Shown here one piece after another: positions 4,282 to 20,989 of a stretch of 27,278 bases of DNA (the first letter of the stretch is position 1; the number at the start of each line of letters is the position of its first letter). The notes under the pieces are model-generated. The model saw nothing but the letters and a program-made list of their open reading frames with translations, was not told the DNA's origin and made no database searches. This DNA comes from a virus. The stretch covers positions 1 through 27,278 of the IMG/VR virus record IMGVR_UViG_3300046515_000156. The stretch is one strand, 5' to 3'. Both the position numbers and the translations under genes were made by a program.

Positions 4282-4677
4282 TTACTCAACCCATACGCCG
4301 TCGGCATCAATACCGACGATGCGTCCAGCAGCGGATCGGGTGCCGCCTGCATCAGCAGCCGCCACGGTTTCGTCATCGACGATGTAGGCGGGCTTGAACA
4401 GATGCGCCTGGGTGACGGTGCCGTCATTGGCCCAAAGGAATGCCTTGCCGTGGCGGATCTCGGCCAGCGCAGCACCCGCTGCACCGCCTCGGTTGTCGAC
4501 TGACGCCTCGAAACGGCCCAGGTAAGACAGGCCCAGAGCGGTTGAACCGGGTGCAGCAAAGCCGGTGGCGGTGGCGACTGCCAGAGAGCCAGCGAAGATG
4601 CGAACGTTGGCGGCGACGGGGATCACCAGCACTTCGGTGGACTTCATGGGCGTGTTGCGATCTTGAGTCAGCGGCAC
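4282..4677 (-). CDS. Mu gp33-like head decoration/fibre protein (DUF2190-like)
   Basis: A 131-residue protein lying between protease I and major capsid T, the place of Mu gene 33. The start is taken as GTG at 4677, preceded by GAGGG overlapping the end of gene I; this gives the N-terminus MPLTQDRNTP, typical of DUF2190-like phage proteins. An internal ATG at 4647 is a weaker alternative. The body is rich in small residues (AGSLAVATATGFAAPGS) and beta-prone, as in trimeric head decoration proteins. The decoration role is inferred from family and position. Confidence 0.75.
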   Translation of the reverse strand: MPLTQDRNTPMKSTEVLVIPVAANVRIFAGSLAVATATGFAAPGSTALGLSYLGRFEASVDNRGGAAGAALAEIRHGKAFLWANDGTVTQAHLFKPAYIVDDETVAAADAGGTRSAAGRIVGIDADGVWVE

Positions 4678-4680
4678 GGG

Positions 4681-5667
4681 TTAACCCTCGCTCTGTTTGT
4701 TTTTGGCGAACTCAGCCGGATCAACACCCAGTTGCAGGCACATGGCGCGCTCTTCTGAGTTGAGCGCGGTGGTGGTTTTGTCGGGCTGGCGTTCGCCTAG
4801 GCTAGTTGGATCACCAACGATGGGCGCTGCCTCGACGAAAGCTTTGAAGCGCGTCAGTCCGGCTTCGTCCTGGCACATGGCACGGTGATAATCCGCAGTA
4901 GCTGGGGTGATCTTTCCGGCTTGGGTGGCCTGAGTGATAACCGTGTCCACTGCCTTGTTGTGTTCTGCCGCTTTAAAAACGGTGAGGGCCTGCTCGGCAT
5001 TCAATGCGCGGGACTCCAGCGCGTTGTAGTCGGCGCGAGGTACGAACCGCTCCAGGTTGCCCGACTCGGTGTTGAGTGCCTGGGTAGCGGCATTGAGTTT
5101 GGCGGTGGTTGCGGTAAAGACCTGCTCTGCGGTCGCCGTATCAGGCAACCCGAGCAGCTTTAAAAGCTCTGGTGAGGGTTTCACAGGGGCGTTCTCCATT
5201 TGCTCTTGGTTGAGTGCTGTCATTACGAGGTTGGGGATGTTGGTAAGGGCGGCGCTGACCATGCGCACAATGCGTTTGGTCTCATCGTCGTAATCAAAAA
5301 CCGGGGAAAGGAAGCGGTACTCTTTGTCTTCAACCTGGAGTTTGCCGCGTGGAGTCCAGTCGACCTGTCCCCACAACGCGCCGTTGCGTATTTCCAGTTT
5401 CTTGATCCATGCACCGGCCGGGGCGGGCTCGCCCTGAGGGGCACGGCGCTGGGTGGCATGCTCCCAGTCGATAGGCAAATCTATTGCCCGACTGGAGAAG
5501 TTGGTCTGTACAAACTGAGAGGCGGTATCGTCGAACAGCCAGGCGCGGCCGTCGCGGCCAACAACGCTGGGGCCGGCGGGGATTAGCTCTACCCACTCGG
5601 GTGCCTTCCCATCGGAAAGCTCGACGGAGCTGTATATTTCAGAGTTAACGGCGAGTTGAGTTTTCAT
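4681..5667 (-). CDS. I: Head maturation protease/scaffold (Mu gpI family)
   Basis: A 328-residue protein. The N-terminal half (about residues 1-150) is the protease-like part, with the conserved-looking LPIDWEHATQ and YRFLSPVFDYDD segments seen in gpI proteins. The C-terminal half (about 160-328) is helical and Ala/Glu-rich, as expected of the scaffold; in Mu a shorter product (Z) of this region is the scaffold proper. I did not locate a separate Z start with confidence. Unlike its neighbours, the ATG at 5667 has no clear Shine-Dalgarno and its first two bases pair in a perfect 8-bp hairpin. This gene begins the second late transcription unit. Confidence 0.9.
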   Translation of the reverse strand: MKTQLAVNSEIYSSVELSDGKAPEWVELIPAGPSVVGRDGRAWLFDDTASQFVQTNFSSRAIDLPIDWEHATQRRAPQGEPAPAGAWIKKLEIRNGALWGQVDWTPRGKLQVEDKEYRFLSPVFDYDDETKRIVRMVSAALTNIPNLVMTALNQEQMENAPVKPSPELLKLLGLPDTATAEQVFTATTAKLNAATQALNTESGNLERFVPRADYNALESRALNAEQALTVFKAAEHNKAVDTVITQATQAGKITPATADYHRAMCQDEAGLTRFKAFVEAAPIVGDPTSLGERQPDKTTTALNSEERAMCLQLGVDPAEFAKNKQSEG

Positions 5668-15760: not shown

Positions 15761-16198
15761 CTAATGAACTGTCCCGTCATCAAAGCCGAATAAGTCGGGC
15801 TCGCTCTTACGGTGGAGCGCCCGTTGACGGGCAATGATGTCATAAATCGTTTGGCTCGACAGGTCGTACTTGCTGACCATATCGGCGGGTTTGACCCCAC
15901 GGTCTCGCCAATCCTGATAGATCGCCGCGTCGCGCATGGCTCGCTTTAGGATTGTGCCCCGTGGCAGATACATCACTGTACCGCCCTGGTGTTCACAGAT
16001 CGAATAGACCACACGGCGGGCCAATTCAGGGGCACCGTCTGGGTTATTAAGCGCCTTACGCAGCTCGACTTCTGCGACCCTGACCATCTCGCCCAGGGTG
16101 CCCTCCCAGCGTGCAAGGACGGTGGGTGACTCCATGTGAGCTAGAACCTTATCAGGGTCGAGTTTATCGCTGTCGTCCGGGAATAGTTCTTCGTTCAT
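15761..16198 (-). CDS. mor: Mor/C-family transcription activator
   Basis: A 145-residue protein of the Mu Mor/C family, which activates middle or late phage promoters by binding dyad sites as a dimer. Recognisable parts are the dimerisation region (about 55-100, with ELARRVVYSICEHQGGTVMYLPRG, whose 'GG..vYiP.g' is the family signature) and the C-terminal helix-turn-helix (about 110-135, VSKYDLSSQTIYDII). Only one Mor/C homologue is present in the window, so it may do the work of both Mor and C. It overlaps the gemA stop by 4 bp and is the last gene of the early operon before the secreted protein. Confidence 0.93.
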   Translation of the reverse strand: MNEELFPDDSDKLDPDKVLAHMESPTVLARWEGTLGEMVRVAEVELRKALNNPDGAPELARRVVYSICEHQGGTVMYLPRGTILKRAMRDAAIYQDWRDRGVKPADMVSKYDLSSQTIYDIIARQRALHRKSEPDLFGFDDGTVH

Positions 16199-16611
16199 CG
16201 TTCAGGCCTCCCATGTCGGCGGGCATCGTAGGTCAATGCCGCAACCAATTTTTGCAGTTGCCCAGGGTCGAGCCATTCCACGCGCTCGACCTTGAACATG
16301 CGCAAGGCCATACCATCAGCATACGCCCAGGAGCGTTTCGCTTCGGCGAGAAAGGCCTCAATCTTACCCACCAGTTTCTCCCGGTCTGGCGCAGGTGTCG
16401 GCGCTTTGCGGCCATGCTTTTTAGCCGGTGCCGACGCCCAGCCCAATCGGGCGAACTCGGCCAATACTGCGCCGGTCTGGCGGGGGGTCAGGTCTTTGGC
16501 CGAACGCACACCGGCCACACGGACCAGTAAGGCGCGGTAGGTATCGTCATCCAGTCCCAGCTCCTTCTTGGCGATATGGATTTTGCTCAGTTGCAAGTTT
16601 CGCGTGCTCAT
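16195..16611 (-). CDS. gemA: GemA-like regulatory protein (Mu gp16, DUF1018)
   Basis: A 138-residue protein. The N-terminal LSKIHIAKKELGLDDDTYRALL (about 8-29) and the VRSAKDLTPRQTGAVLAEFARLGW segment are diagnostic of the GemA/DUF1018 family. In Mu, GemA modulates host gene expression and DNA topology late in early transcription, and gemA directly precedes mor, as here (4-bp overlap). The C-terminal half (AFLAEAKRSWAYADGMALRMF, VEWLDPGQLQKLVAAL) is also typical. Confidence 0.92.
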   Translation of the reverse strand: MSTRNLQLSKIHIAKKELGLDDDTYRALLVRVAGVRSAKDLTPRQTGAVLAEFARLGWASAPAKKHGRKAPTPAPDREKLVGKIEAFLAEAKRSWAYADGMALRMFKVERVEWLDPGQLQKLVAALTYDARRHGRPER

Positions 16612-16886
16612 TGTCTTCCTCCTTTGATAAGGGCCTGGAACGCGGCTGGGTCGTTTCGGGACAGTGCGGCGACACCATGAATAGTCATGGTGAGCGCGTG
16701 TTCTGTTTCATCGAACGCCCCGGCGCTGCGGATCTGTTCCACTTCGCTCCTGGTGCCGCTATAGATTTCCATCTTGAGTTTGCTAGCGCCCATAGCCAGG
16801 CGCTTGTCCTTGTCGCGCTTGCGCTGGGCGCGTTTACGCTCGCGAGCCAGGCGGGTTTTGCGCTGTGTGGGTGATTCGTCTGTCAT
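16608..16886 (-). CDS. Hypothetical basic protein of the early operon
   Basis: A 92-residue protein from the ATG at 16886, or 101 residues if a TTG at 16913 is used. The TTG lies inside the loop of a structured repeat, so the ATG is preferred, although its ribosome site is weak. Residues about 8-35 are extremely basic (RKTRLARERKRAQRKRDKDK), suggesting nucleic-acid binding or a charged coil. The remainder (EVEQIRSAGAFDETEHALTM) is helical. Family not recognised. The stop overlaps gemA by 4 bp. Confidence 0.7.
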   Translation of the reverse strand: MTDESPTQRKTRLARERKRAQRKRDKDKRLAMGASKLKMEIYSGTRSEVEQIRSAGAFDETEHALTMTIHGVAALSRNDPAAFQALIKGGRQ

Positions 16887-16890
16887 GGGT

Positions 16891-16958
16891 GGCTGCTCAT
16901 CAGTACCGGACAACCACGTCCGGCAGACCGCCCCAGCAAGCCGGGACGGTTTCGCTTA
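16891..16958 (-). ncRNA. Two-hairpin structured RNA element, copy A
   Basis: A 68-bp element, 57/68 identical to copy B at 17637-17704 with no gaps. On the minus strand it begins with the TAA of the DUF2786 gene (TAAGCGAAACCG). Hairpin 1 is CCGTCCCGG/CTGGGGCGG with loop CTTG. After a 4-nt spacer, hairpin 2 is CCGGAC, loop GTGGTT, GTCCGG (16906-16923). The element ends in the constant GTACTGATGAGCAGCC just before the next gene. Compared with copy B, hairpin 2 has two compensatory pair swaps and an unchanged loop, so the structure appears to be conserved. Function unknown. Confidence 0.7.
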
Positions 16959-17627
16959 GTGCAGGGCAAGCTGTTCCTGACCGTTAACCCCATGGTTTAA
17001 GCGCACATCGCCCGCCGCAAGAATGCCGTGCAGGGCGTCAGTCATGGCACGCACACCATTTCCCTGGTTGGCGTTACGGTCGCGGCAGGCGAGCTTTTCC
17101 GTCTCTGTGTGGTGCTTGAGCATGTACGCCGAAGTCGCCGGGGATGGTTCATCATTGCCAGCAAAGGCCATGACCTGCTTTCGCACGGCCGATACCCAGG
17201 CCGCACAGAACACGTCGGCGCGTTTGGTCTTGGTCGCTGTCTTGCAACGCTTCAACTGAGTGTTGATAAAGTCGCGTCGAGACTGCCGAACCTGGCGCAG
17301 CAATAGGGTCATGGTGTAGCTGGCCAACTCCGCTAGTTCACCGATAAAGCGCCATTCGCCGATACCGGCCATGAACAGGACTTTGCAGGCATAGGCTTGA
17401 GTAACGGCTCCAACCAGGTTGGCTTCCCATTGCGGCGGGGTCATTTTTGAACCACTACGGGCGGCACATTCGTACACTTCGGATAGCTGGATATCCGATT
17501 CTTCTAAACGATACTTTTCCATCAAGGCACGGGCCTGGCGCATTGCAGCGGCGGCTTCGTGCGGGTTGTCGCTTGCTGCCAGGCGCAACAGTTTTTTGAT
17601 CTTTTCTAAGGCTTTGCTGTGATCCAT
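16956..17627 (-). CDS. DUF2786 domain protein
   Basis: A 223-residue protein. Residues 1-40 (ALEKIKKLLRLAASDNPHEAAAAMRQARALMEKYRL) match the DUF2786 domain closely. The rest, with a FIGELAELASYTMTLLLRQVRQ helix, the DVFCAAWVSAVRKQV segment (about 140-155) and a C-terminal stretch of unknown fold, resembles the region that usually accompanies DUF2786 in phage proteins. The biochemical role is unknown; the family is frequent in Mu-like early regions. The ATG has a GAGGAAG ribosome site located immediately after structured RNA copy B, and the stop is the first triplet of copy A. Confidence 0.85.
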   Translation of the reverse strand: MDHSKALEKIKKLLRLAASDNPHEAAAAMRQARALMEKYRLEESDIQLSEVYECAARSGSKMTPPQWEANLVGAVTQAYACKVLFMAGIGEWRFIGELAELASYTMTLLLRQVRQSRRDFINTQLKRCKTATKTKRADVFCAAWVSAVRKQVMAFAGNDEPSPATSAYMLKHHTETEKLACRDRNANQGNGVRAMTDALHGILAAGDVRLNHGVNGQEQLALH

Positions 17628-17636
17628 ATCTTCCTC

Positions 17637-17704
17637 GGCTGCTCATCAGTACCAGGCAACCACGCCTGACAGACCGTCCCGGATGGCCGGGGCGGTTTCG
17701 CTTA
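17637..17704 (-). ncRNA. Two-hairpin structured RNA element, copy B
   Basis: Second copy of the 68-bp element. It again starts at a stop codon (TAA of the 73-residue protein gene) and ends in the constant tail before the next ribosome-binding site. Hairpin 1 is CCGCCCCGG/CCGGGACGG with loop CCAT and one C-A mismatch. Hairpin 2 is TCAGGC, loop GTGGTT, GCCTGG (17652-17669). Relative to copy A, a G-C pair has become A-U, an A-U pair has become G-C, and the outer C-G has become U-G. The U-G is a pair only on the minus (transcribed) strand. Confidence 0.7.
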
Positions 17705-17923
17705 TTGAAGGGTCATGGTGGTGGGTTGCCAGCGGCAGGCAGGAATGGCACCCAACATCTTTTCGCTGGCGACCAGGTCGAATACCTTGTTGGAAAGTCG
17801 CACAGCTTCCGTCTGCCGGGGTGTTCCCAGGGAGCTGGTCGGTACGCCTGTCATATCAACGGTGACGGAGGGCTTGCCGTTGCCTTCGGCGCGGTCCTCC
17901 AGGGTGATTGTGATCTTTGCCAT
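17702..17923 (-). CDS. Hypothetical 73-residue protein of the early operon
   Basis: A small protein beginning MAKITITLEDRAEGNGKPSV, with a beta-prone start and a later helical segment (TEAVRLSNKVFDLVASEKML). The ATG at 17923 has AGGAAG 6 nt upstream, a good site. No family recognised. Its stop codon begins structured RNA copy B, so translation ends exactly where the RNA fold starts. Confidence 0.72.
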   Translation of the reverse strand: MAKITITLEDRAEGNGKPSVTVDMTGVPTSSLGTPRQTEAVRLSNKVFDLVASEKMLGAIPACRWQPTTMTLQ

Positions 17924-17931
17924 GGGGCTTC

Positions 17932-18339
17932 CTATCGTTGAGTGTGGAAAGTAATGCGGTAATCGCGGGCAACCTGGCGCACGTACTTTTCGGTCATGTG
18001 GTGCTTACGTGCGACCCACCTAGGGGAGTTGCCCAAGGCTGCATCTGCCATGATCAACGTGGCGTGCTTGCGGGTGTCCGGTGCGACTTCCTCAAGCTCG
18101 GCAGATACCGAGGGCGGATCAGCGGCCACAGAGACAAACAAGTGGGCATAGACTGGCGACCGTTCCGGGTTAATCGTGAAGGTCGCTGGTGCGCTGCTCA
18201 TCTGGTGGCCGACCTTCTGGATTTGTCCGCCACGATCCAAGAACTGCTCAGTCAGGCGGTCTAGGTTGGCGCGTTCAACGTCGTGTTGCGGCGAGTGGAT
18301 GGGCAACGGATCGCTGCGGGTGTCGTGATAACGCTGCAT
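17932..18339 (-). CDS. Hypothetical protein with a possible C-terminal helix-turn-helix
   Basis: A 135-residue protein. The C-terminal third (about 95-135, MADAALGNSPRWVARKHHMTEKYVRQVARDYRI) has the pattern of a helix-turn-helix, with WVARKHHMTEKYVRQVA as the likely core. The N-terminal part is hydrophilic and contains a short MSSAPATFTINPERSPVYAHLFVSV segment. No family recognised. The start follows the DUF3164 stop by 2 bp, with GGGGGTC upstream. Confidence 0.7.
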   Translation of the reverse strand: MQRYHDTRSDPLPIHSPQHDVERANLDRLTEQFLDRGGQIQKVGHQMSSAPATFTINPERSPVYAHLFVSVAADPPSVSAELEEVAPDTRKHATLIMADAALGNSPRWVARKHHMTEKYVRQVARDYRITFHTQR

Positions 18340-18341
18340 GA

Positions 18342-18962
18342 TCAGACCCCCGCGATATCAAGGCTGATAGGTTCGTACTGCTCCGTATCACCTACACGCT
18401 GATACACACGGATGTAGGACTTTGAGCCAACCACCTGGCAGGCATCACCAATGGCCTGCATGGCGCGCTGCCAGCGCTCATCGGTAATTTCCATCCGGCG
18501 CAATGCCAAGACGCGGGCTGTGCGGATGTCGCCTTTCTGGTCAGTCCGAAAGGCGTCATTCACAAGCGTGACCACTTCGGGGCGTGCCCCGGTGGTCCAG
18601 TCGCGCAGGCATTCATCAATCAATGCCCGCGCTGCCTGGAGGCGTTCGTCGAAGGCGATGCTTTCCTGGACGGCGCGCATGATCTTGAAGCGCCCATCGA
18701 AGCTGATCAGGCTGACATTGCCTTTCTTGCCGCCGATCTGCGCGCCGTACTGCTCGGCGCTTAGTTCCACAAAGGCTTCGATATCACCGAATGCCGAGGC
18801 CTTGAACTTCGCCAGAACCTCGTTGGCAGCGCGGGCTTTTTCAACCAGGCCAAGCACCAGGGTGTCTCGCTCCAGGTCGATAGGTTTGATCATGCTTTCC
18901 GGGATCAGCCGCTTTTGAGCGTCGACGCGGTAGCCTTCGGGAATGGTTTGTTGTTGTGTCAT
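18342..18962 (-). CDS. DUF3164 family protein
   Basis: A 206-residue protein matching the DUF3164 family found in Mu-like early regions. Visible hallmarks are PEGYRVDAQKRLIPESMIKPIDLERDTLV at the N-terminus (about 9-37), GGKKGNVSLISFDGRFKIMRAVQE (about 77-100) and a C-terminal MQAIGDACQVVGSKSYIRVYQR. Function is not established. The ATG at 18962 has GAGGAAAC about 8 nt upstream. Confidence 0.88.
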   Translation of the reverse strand: MTQQQTIPEGYRVDAQKRLIPESMIKPIDLERDTLVLGLVEKARAANEVLAKFKASAFGDIEAFVELSAEQYGAQIGGKKGNVSLISFDGRFKIMRAVQESIAFDERLQAARALIDECLRDWTTGARPEVVTLVNDAFRTDQKGDIRTARVLALRRMEITDERWQRAMQAIGDACQVVGSKSYIRVYQRVGDTEQYEPISLDIAGV

Positions 18963-20269: not shown

Positions 20270-20989
20270 TCAAGCCCTCCGCGACGGCGCTTCGCCGGTA
20301 AACCAACCGCGTGAGCCCCAACCGGCGAGGTCGATGCTGTCGATGGCCAGGGCTTGGGTTTCGCTGTAGACCCGATATAGGTTGACGGCGATACGGCGAA
20401 GGCACCCACCGACCTTGGTCCGCAGATCCTCCAACAGGTCATCGGCAAAGCGCAGTGATGGATAACTGGCCTTACTCAAGGCGCGCAGATCATCGAGGGT
20501 GGCGCGTTGTGCAGGCACCCACTCCAGCACACGGTTATGCAGGCGCTCCAACTTAGCCAAACTACCGGGCACACGCTCTTCGCCGATCAGGACGATAGTT
20601 CCCTGGCTGGCGTTGTAGATGTCGGTCAGGACGTTGGCGACGGCCTTTTCCAGCAGGTACTGCACGTCGTCAATTAGCAGTGGGCGACCACTGCGGGATA
20701 GCTGCTCGGCGATCTGGTCAACCATCTGTGACAAGGTGCGCTCTGGCTGGATGCTCATTTCGCGCAGGATGGCGAGCAGGAAAGCTTTCTTGCTCCAGGT
20801 ATCGCGACACTCCACGTAGTAGGCGCGATGTTGGTTGGCGGCGAAGGCAGCGCCCACGCTTTTACCCAGCCCGCTTGCGCCGTACATCACCACCAAACCA
20901 GGCAGGCCGGCTGGGCGGGCATGGGCTCGGGCGATGGCGGCTGACAAGAGGCCGACATTGGTCAGGGGAACGATCTTGGTAACACTCAT
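20270..20989 (-). CDS. B: Transposition ATPase, target-DNA activator (MuB-like)
   Basis: A 239-residue AAA+ ATPase. Walker A is GASGLGKS (37-44) and Walker B is PLLIDDVQ (103-110); an arginine-rich region follows in the last third. MuB-type proteins form filaments on target DNA, give target immunity and stimulate the transposase. At 239 residues it is shorter than MuB (about 312), lacking most of the N-terminal DNA-binding extension, as in related Pseudomonas transposable phages. It starts 24 bp after the transposase stop with AGGAG upstream. Confidence 0.93.
   Translation of the reverse strand: MSVTKIVPLTNVGLLSAAIARAHARPAGLPGLVVMYGASGLGKSVGAAFAANQHRAYYVECRDTWSKKAFLLAILREMSIQPERTLSQMVDQIAEQLSRSGRPLLIDDVQYLLEKAVANVLTDIYNASQGTIVLIGEERVPGSLAKLERLHNRVLEWVPAQRATLDDLRALSKASYPSLRFADDLLEDLRTKVGGCLRRIAVNLYRVYSETQALAIDSIDLAGWGSRGWFTGEAPSRRA

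Follow-up and report, generated by a model that had tools for sequence, protein, structure and literature searches.

The DNA considered here, referred to below as the window, is the whole stretch of 27,278 nucleotides of IMG/VR virus record IMGVR_UViG_3300046515_000156 (positions 1 to 27,278). The gene content is that of a Mu-like early/middle region, with genes on the minus strand in the order MuB-like, DUF3164, a 73-aa gene, element A, DUF2786/DUF7168, element B, phrog_4093, GemA and Mor. The two elements, assigned below to the type II hammerhead ribozymes, are copies of one repeat. The closest cellular relatives of the DUF2786 protein occur in Pseudomonas (98% identity, P. proteolytica), and the DNA relatives include the P. 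aeruginosa phages D3112, DMS3 and JBD24; by these similarities the source is probably a Mu-like Pseudomonas phage. A search for plasmid carriage of the region gave no match. The features are as follows.

20270-20989, minus strand: gene for the MuB-like transposition protein
18342-18962, minus strand: DUF3164 gene
17702-17923, minus strand: 73-aa gene, left border of the variable slot, kept beside ribozyme A in relatives
17702-17704, minus strand: TAA stop of the 73-aa gene, adjoining the 5' edge of ribozyme A (TAA-GC-GAAA), as read from the sequence
17633-17703, minus strand: copy A, upstream type II hammerhead ribozyme, between the 73-aa gene and the DUF2786 gene
17696-17701, minus strand: copy A, 5' strand of stem II (GC) and GAAA (G12 A13 A14 A15.1), invariant in 81/81 aligned ribozymes
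17673-17696, minus strand: copy A, stem III hairpin (A15.1-U16.1 to the loop), the first hairpin of the first-pass annotation
17671-17672, minus strand: copy A, predicted self-cleavage site GUC^U, H17 = C at 17672, from hammerhead core geometry
17650-17671, minus strand: copy A, stem I hairpin with loop GUGGUU (17658-17663), from covariation, the second hairpin of the first-pass annotation
17641-17649, minus strand: copy A, CUGAUGA core (17643-17649) and 3' strand of stem II, GC (17641-17642)
17636-17640, minus strand: copy A, 3' tail AGCCG, pseudoknot partner of loop I
17632-17636, minus strand: Shine-Dalgarno-like GAGGA of the DUF2786 gene, starting on the last base of the copy A tail
16956-17627, minus strand: DUF2786 + DUF7168 gene, 223 aa, phrog_421 (Pfam PF10979, PF23771)
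16887-16957, minus strand: copy B, downstream type II hammerhead ribozyme, between the DUF2786 gene and the phrog_4093 gene
16950-16958, minus strand: TAA of the DUF2786 gene (16956-16958), with stem II GC (16954-16955) and GAAA (16950-16953) of copy B
16927-16950, minus strand: copy B, stem III hairpin
16925-16926, minus strand: copy B, predicted self-cleavage site GUC^U, H17 = C at 16926
16904-16925, minus strand: copy B, stem I hairpin with loop GUGGUU (16912-16917)
16890-16903, minus strand: copy B, CUGAUGA (16897-16903), stem II GC (16895-16896) and pseudoknot tail AGCCA (16890-16894)
16608-16886, minus strand: phrog_4093 gene, 92 aa, right border of the slot
16195-16611 and 15761-16198, minus strand: GemA and then Mor, downstream of the phrog_4093 gene

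A further early protein of 135 aa (phrog_5249; 17932-18339, minus strand) resembles the SutA RNA-polymerase-binding domain (PF20661) at a level below threshold (E 5.2e-6; 26.2 bits, cut-off 29.3), a hint that this phage protein may contact the host RNA polymerase.

The two copies form the largest direct-repeat family of the window. A recount of the ungapped 68-nt alignment (16891-16958 and 17637-17704) gave 11 differences, i.e. 57/68 or 84% identity, in agreement with the first-pass annotation, and its other descriptive statements also stand: on the minus strand each copy runs from the TAA of the preceding gene to just short of the next start codon, the stem of the second hairpin differs by three changes that keep pairing (G-C/A-U, A-U/G-C and C-G/U-G) around an invariant GUGGUU loop, and the U-G versus C-A change in the first hairpin is uncompensated. 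Read along the minus strand, each copy has the order TAAGC-GAAA-(stem III hairpin)-C^-(stem I hairpin)-CUGAUGA-GC-AGCC, in which the hairpin 'linkers' GCGAAA and CUGAUGAGC correspond to the hammerhead catalytic core. With the Rfam model RF02276 (type II hammerhead ribozyme; curated gathering cut-off 37 bits), copy A scored 67.1 bits (17703-17633; E 3.8e-12) and copy B 66.3 bits (16957-16887; E 6.4e-12), the E values being for the whole window and both matches spanning positions 1-66 of the 66 of the model. A search across the whole virus record returned only the same two matches, 14 control genomes gave no RF02276 match, and no competing RNA family was found above chance at the locus. Both copies have the type II permutation, with stems I and III closed by loops and stem II, of 2 bp, open. 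The core is complete in both (C3 U4 G5 A6 N7 G8 A9 / G12 A13 A14 / A15.1-U16.1 / H17 not G), each carrying CUGAUGA, GAAA, U16.1 and C17. Sequence and covariation together leave hardly any doubt that both copies should be classed as type II hammerhead ribozymes.

This assignment bears directly on the likeness to the put antitermination RNAs of HK022 that had been proposed earlier. Like these, the element belongs to an early transcript and consists of two hairpins side by side, about 65 nt in all, but its single-stranded parts match the hammerhead core and the element as a whole matches RF02276. Furthermore, the copies lie several genes into the operon, past the MuB-like gene (20270-20989), and are paired around a gene, whereas HK022 put sites are located close to early promoters. 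A put-like antitermination element is therefore very improbable. Of the roles that the first-pass annotation had considered, mRNA processing is retained, as self-cleavage by a member of RF02276, and this reading replaces antitermination.

The idea of a structured RNA that acts in the transcribed strand and is under selection for pairing is borne out by covariation among relatives. The test comprised 81 distinct aligned ribozymes and a 23-pair structure including the pseudoknot, with 500 shuffles and slid structures as controls; kinship was handled by redundancy filters and by these controls. Stem changes that break pairing as often as they keep it, which the earlier annotation had named as evidence against its proposal, were not what was found: 95.9% of the pair cells were kept as compared to 88.5% in shuffled alignments, and 134 cells were double-changed against 32.7, although such cell counts overstate the number of events because the sequences are related. 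The covariation score was 0.288, against 0.139 +/- 0.005 for shuffled alignments and at most 0.086 for slid structures, and double changes occurred at 16 of the 23 pairs (8.0 in shuffles). Stem I is most variable, with double changes at 7/8 pairs, and stem III has them at 6/8, which makes 13/16 for the two stems together. The pseudoknot of loop I (GUGGUU) with the tail AGCC(A/G) comprises 5 pairs, with 94% of the cells paired and double changes at 3, the clearest case being a G-C to A-U double change in relatives L015, L023 and L026 (loop GUAGUG, tail AGCUA); its support is weaker than that of the stems because 2 of the 5 pairs never vary or vary one-sidedly.

Stem II (GC/GC) showed no variation in the 81 aligned ribozymes, and the core elements GC-GAAA, U16.1, H17 = C and CUGA-N-GA were invariant, N7 being the only core position that varies. 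Position 7 of the hammerhead tolerates any base. The Rfam model and the search pattern select for the core, without selecting for stem sequence. An intact core (GAAA and CUGANGA) was present in 97 of the 98 Rfam matches examined in the fetched loci, the exception being L115, which has lost the 5' half. The comparison among relatives thus supports the view that the element would be a working ribozyme. A longer stem II was rejected, with a third pair formed in 14% and a fourth in 4% of the sequences, and a third regular-expression match in L071 (6458) was omitted as a false positive without a GC stem II. Locus L116 contains a hammerhead (4832-4899) with wholly different, more A+U-rich stems and the tail GCAACCACA, but the same core; its loop/tail pseudoknot is fully paired (GUGGU/ACCAC), and the gene next to it is distantly related (31%) to the 138-aa cargo gene described below.

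A similarity of 84% between the copies would also agree with a plain recent duplication of an inert repeat, in which any structure has arisen by chance. However, the A and B copies keep separate stem I and tail signatures across many phages, as expected of distinguishable, conserved paralogues, and the covariation lies far above that of shuffles. Plain duplication, which the first-pass annotation had itself named as a point to be checked, can for these reasons be regarded as practically ruled out.

The explanation that we favour for the locus as a whole, with a probability of about 85%, is that paired type II hammerheads cut the early transcript around an exchangeable gene. When transcribed as part of the early operon, each copy would cleave the RNA that contains it at GUC^U, where stem III gives way to stem I, with formation of a 2',3'-cyclic phosphate and a 5'-OH, and pseudoknot pairing of loop I (GUGGUU) with the AGCC(A/G) tail would stabilise the ribozyme. 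From the intact core and the activity published for other members of the family, cutting in the cell is predicted with good confidence at 17672^17671 and 16926^16925. The upstream mRNA would then have a 3' end consisting of the stem III hairpin and the cyclic phosphate, right after the upstream stop codon, and the downstream mRNA would carry a 5'-OH and have the stem I hairpin at its 5' end, 39-44 nt ahead of the start codon. Two cuts would thus leave the early transcript in three pieces, including a 746-nt single-gene DUF2786 mRNA (17671 to 16926) with a hairpin at each end. Such end hairpins could give each gene a message that decays independently of the others, an arrangement that would be fitting for an exchangeable gene. 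We give an even chance to the proposal that the benefit is separate expression or decay control of this gene; in the literature found, no benefit of cleavage has been shown for any bacterial hammerhead.

Thermodynamic folding indicated that the isolated elements mostly form stems III and I, and that with 100 nt of flanking sequence stem I of copy A is out-competed. Native flanks disrupted stem I in 18/88 cases as compared to 25/88 for shuffled flanks. Since disruption was no commoner with native than with shuffled flanks, an upstream-encoded anti-ribozyme fold at copy A was rejected.

The 746-nt RNA could in principle react further, by circularisation or splicing. The 5' part of the excised RNA (stem I of copy A, CUGAUGA and GC) and its 3' part (GC, GAAA and stem III of copy B) make up one complete hammerhead, and these parts fit, since either copy could supply stem II, the core and the partners of the loop I/tail pairing, whose columns are invariant. 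Circular or spliced products were held possible in earlier work on tandem hammerheads (PMC3088659), but the same study sought them and detected none, and a 2-bp stem II that has to close across about 700 nt is weak. Ligation of the excised RNA into a circular DUF2786 mRNA is therefore improbable, and the cutting of the transcript into linear pieces by the paired hammerheads remains our preferred reading.

The position of the ribozymes with respect to the reading frames is a recurrent feature. For 75 of 95 ribozymes, the stop codon of an upstream open reading frame of 40 or more codons coincides exactly with the TRA of TRA-GC-GAAA, the stop being TAA in some and TGA in others, and among the 37 ribozymes with upstream genes less than 70% identical there are 23 with exact stop overlap and 6 more in which the stop is one base earlier. 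Downstream start codons are usually 10 or 15 nt past the core, and in the copy A types the Shine-Dalgarno-like GAGGA begins on the last base of the pseudoknot. Because the stop codon abuts the core and the start codon is nearby, a ribosome that terminates or initiates there would be expected to collide with the folded ribozyme, and this overlap suggests that cleavage may be coupled to translation.

The content of the slot between the 73-aa gene and phrog_4093 differs among relatives: it can be DUF2786 alone, a 138-aa gene (phrog_5671) with DUF2786, a 69-aa gene (phrog_10154) with DUF2786, the 138-aa gene alone (L049), or nothing. No Pfam domain was found in the 138-aa and 69-aa cargo proteins, which both belong to PHROGs of unknown function. 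Occupied slots mostly have a ribozyme at each end and empty slots have one (L047, L056, L061, L066, L067 and L073); D3112 has one ribozyme and lacks the DUF2786 gene, and JBD24 has one, located before its DUF2786 gene. This distribution suggests that the paired ribozymes mark the borders of a slot in which genes would have been exchanged. In L011, L035 and L039, DUF2786 is followed by GemA, without a second ribozyme or a recognisable phrog_4093, which constitutes an alternative right border.

The empty sites are informative about how genes may have entered or left. Locus L047 is close to the window (amino acid identity of DUF3164 99%, phrog_4093 98% and Mor 99%), yet its slot is empty and it has a single ribozyme, which matches the left flank of copy A of the window up to TAAGCGAAACCGCCCCGGC and from there on copy B, the switch lying before the stem III loop. 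In L056 and L061 an A-like stem III is joined to a B-like stem I and tail, and L073 combines an A-like stem III with a B-like tail, with a later switch than in L056 and L061. For single copies, some of these A-like or B-like assignments are not clear-cut, because stem III is short and G+C-rich and few bases are involved; L066 is ambiguous in stem III and L067 in stem I. From these sequences, the ribozyme looks like the joint at which the gain or loss of genes took place; the chimeric empty sites would be accounted for best by homologous recombination between two ribozymes, or by insertion at a single one.

These observations raise the possibility that the ribozymes persist chiefly as recombination joints, i.e. 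as selfish or neutral cassette borders, and that RNA cleavage is secondary. The different slot content of close relatives and the chimeric-looking ribozymes at the empty sites of L056, L061, L073 and L047 are in line with this, although the ambiguity of L066 (stem III) and L067 (stem I) makes some of the A-like/B-like calls uncertain. On the other hand, pairing is kept despite sequence change (double changes at 7/8 pairs of stem I) and the core is present in 97/98 matches. Pure DNA homology would not act in this way, and catalysis is therefore likely to be under selection too. We consider a role mainly as joints rather unlikely, and continue to prefer cleavage of the transcript around the exchangeable gene. 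A combined scheme can also be envisaged, in which one and the same 70-nt element of a ribozyme-bounded cassette would act as mRNA cutter and as DNA joint, the excised RNA becoming circular and the outer pieces being spliced to a product resembling the empty site, but this is quite improbable.

The distribution of the element was examined in records that were fetched mainly via the DUF2786 protein, independent of the RNA. A ribozyme was present in 40 of these 47 records, usually in two copies that are about 750 to 1170 nt apart; the seven records without one comprise L039, in which the contig ends beside the gene, and six with a DUF2786 protein that is 30-41% identical. When records were fetched by DUF3164, 23 of 50 had the ribozyme. 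Many relatives without hammerheads have DUF3164 and DUF2786 homologues and no Rfam ribozyme nearby, so that this gene order does not depend on the ribozymes. Within the genus Pseudomonas, an RF02276 match was found in 16 of 299 species genomes, 6 of which have two. Four Pseudomonas genomes (G261, G269, G301 and G393) have a single weak type II hammerhead match of 38-44 bits, barely above the cut-off. A more distant DUF3164 phage (L113) carries three type II hammerheads, at 4613, 5637 and 6006, one before and two after GemA.

The first-pass annotation knew of no description of the element, but the class to which it belongs is RF02276, published in 2011: type II hammerheads, their pseudoknot between loop I and the 3' tail, and pairs flanking prophage genes were all described then (Perreault et al., PMC3088659). 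In that work, tandem hammerheads from other bacteria cut in vitro, and those of Agrobacterium also in E. coli; segmentation into gene-length mRNAs was proposed, and 4 of 18 consensus-matching hammerheads gave no in vitro cutting. Among the gene associations of bacterial hammerheads and twisters, those with Mu-like phage genes are the strongest (PMC10085705), and the function of bacterial and phage hammerheads is still called an open question (PMC6155905, PMC10085705). Stop-codon overlap, chimeric empty sites and the variable slot were not found in the literature searched, which included few subscription papers and no supplements, and they may be known already.

The locus recurs, with one or two ribozymes, in the well-studied P. 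aeruginosa phages D3112 and JBD24, and in DMS3 by DNA similarity. Slot content is all that sets close relatives apart, so laboratory lysogens lend themselves to a test of what the cuts do. The stop overlap and the chimeric empty sites lead to the hypotheses that cleavage may be coupled to translation and that the ribozymes may serve as joints of exchangeable cassettes.

Among known systems, HK022 put RNA has two adjacent hairpins and an early phage transcript in common with the element, but differs in sequence logic and position. The tandem hammerheads flanking ardA in Agrobacterium tumefaciens (PMC3088659) are alike in that several are arranged around short phage-type genes, with a different cargo. 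The Mu-like phage loci of PMC10085705 share an early/middle region with Mor, GemA and DUF3164 beside hammerheads; twisters also occur there, whereas neither a twister nor another self-cleaving class was detected at gathering thresholds in the 20 hammerhead-less DUF3164 loci scanned here. With RF02276 as described (PMC3088659) the agreement extends to the permutation, core, 2-bp stem II, pseudoknot, prophage setting and occurrence in pairs around single genes, with no structural difference; the stop overlap, variable slot and chimeric empty sites are extra details of the present locus. Both the class and the kind of place in which it occurs have been described before, and the element adds a further example.
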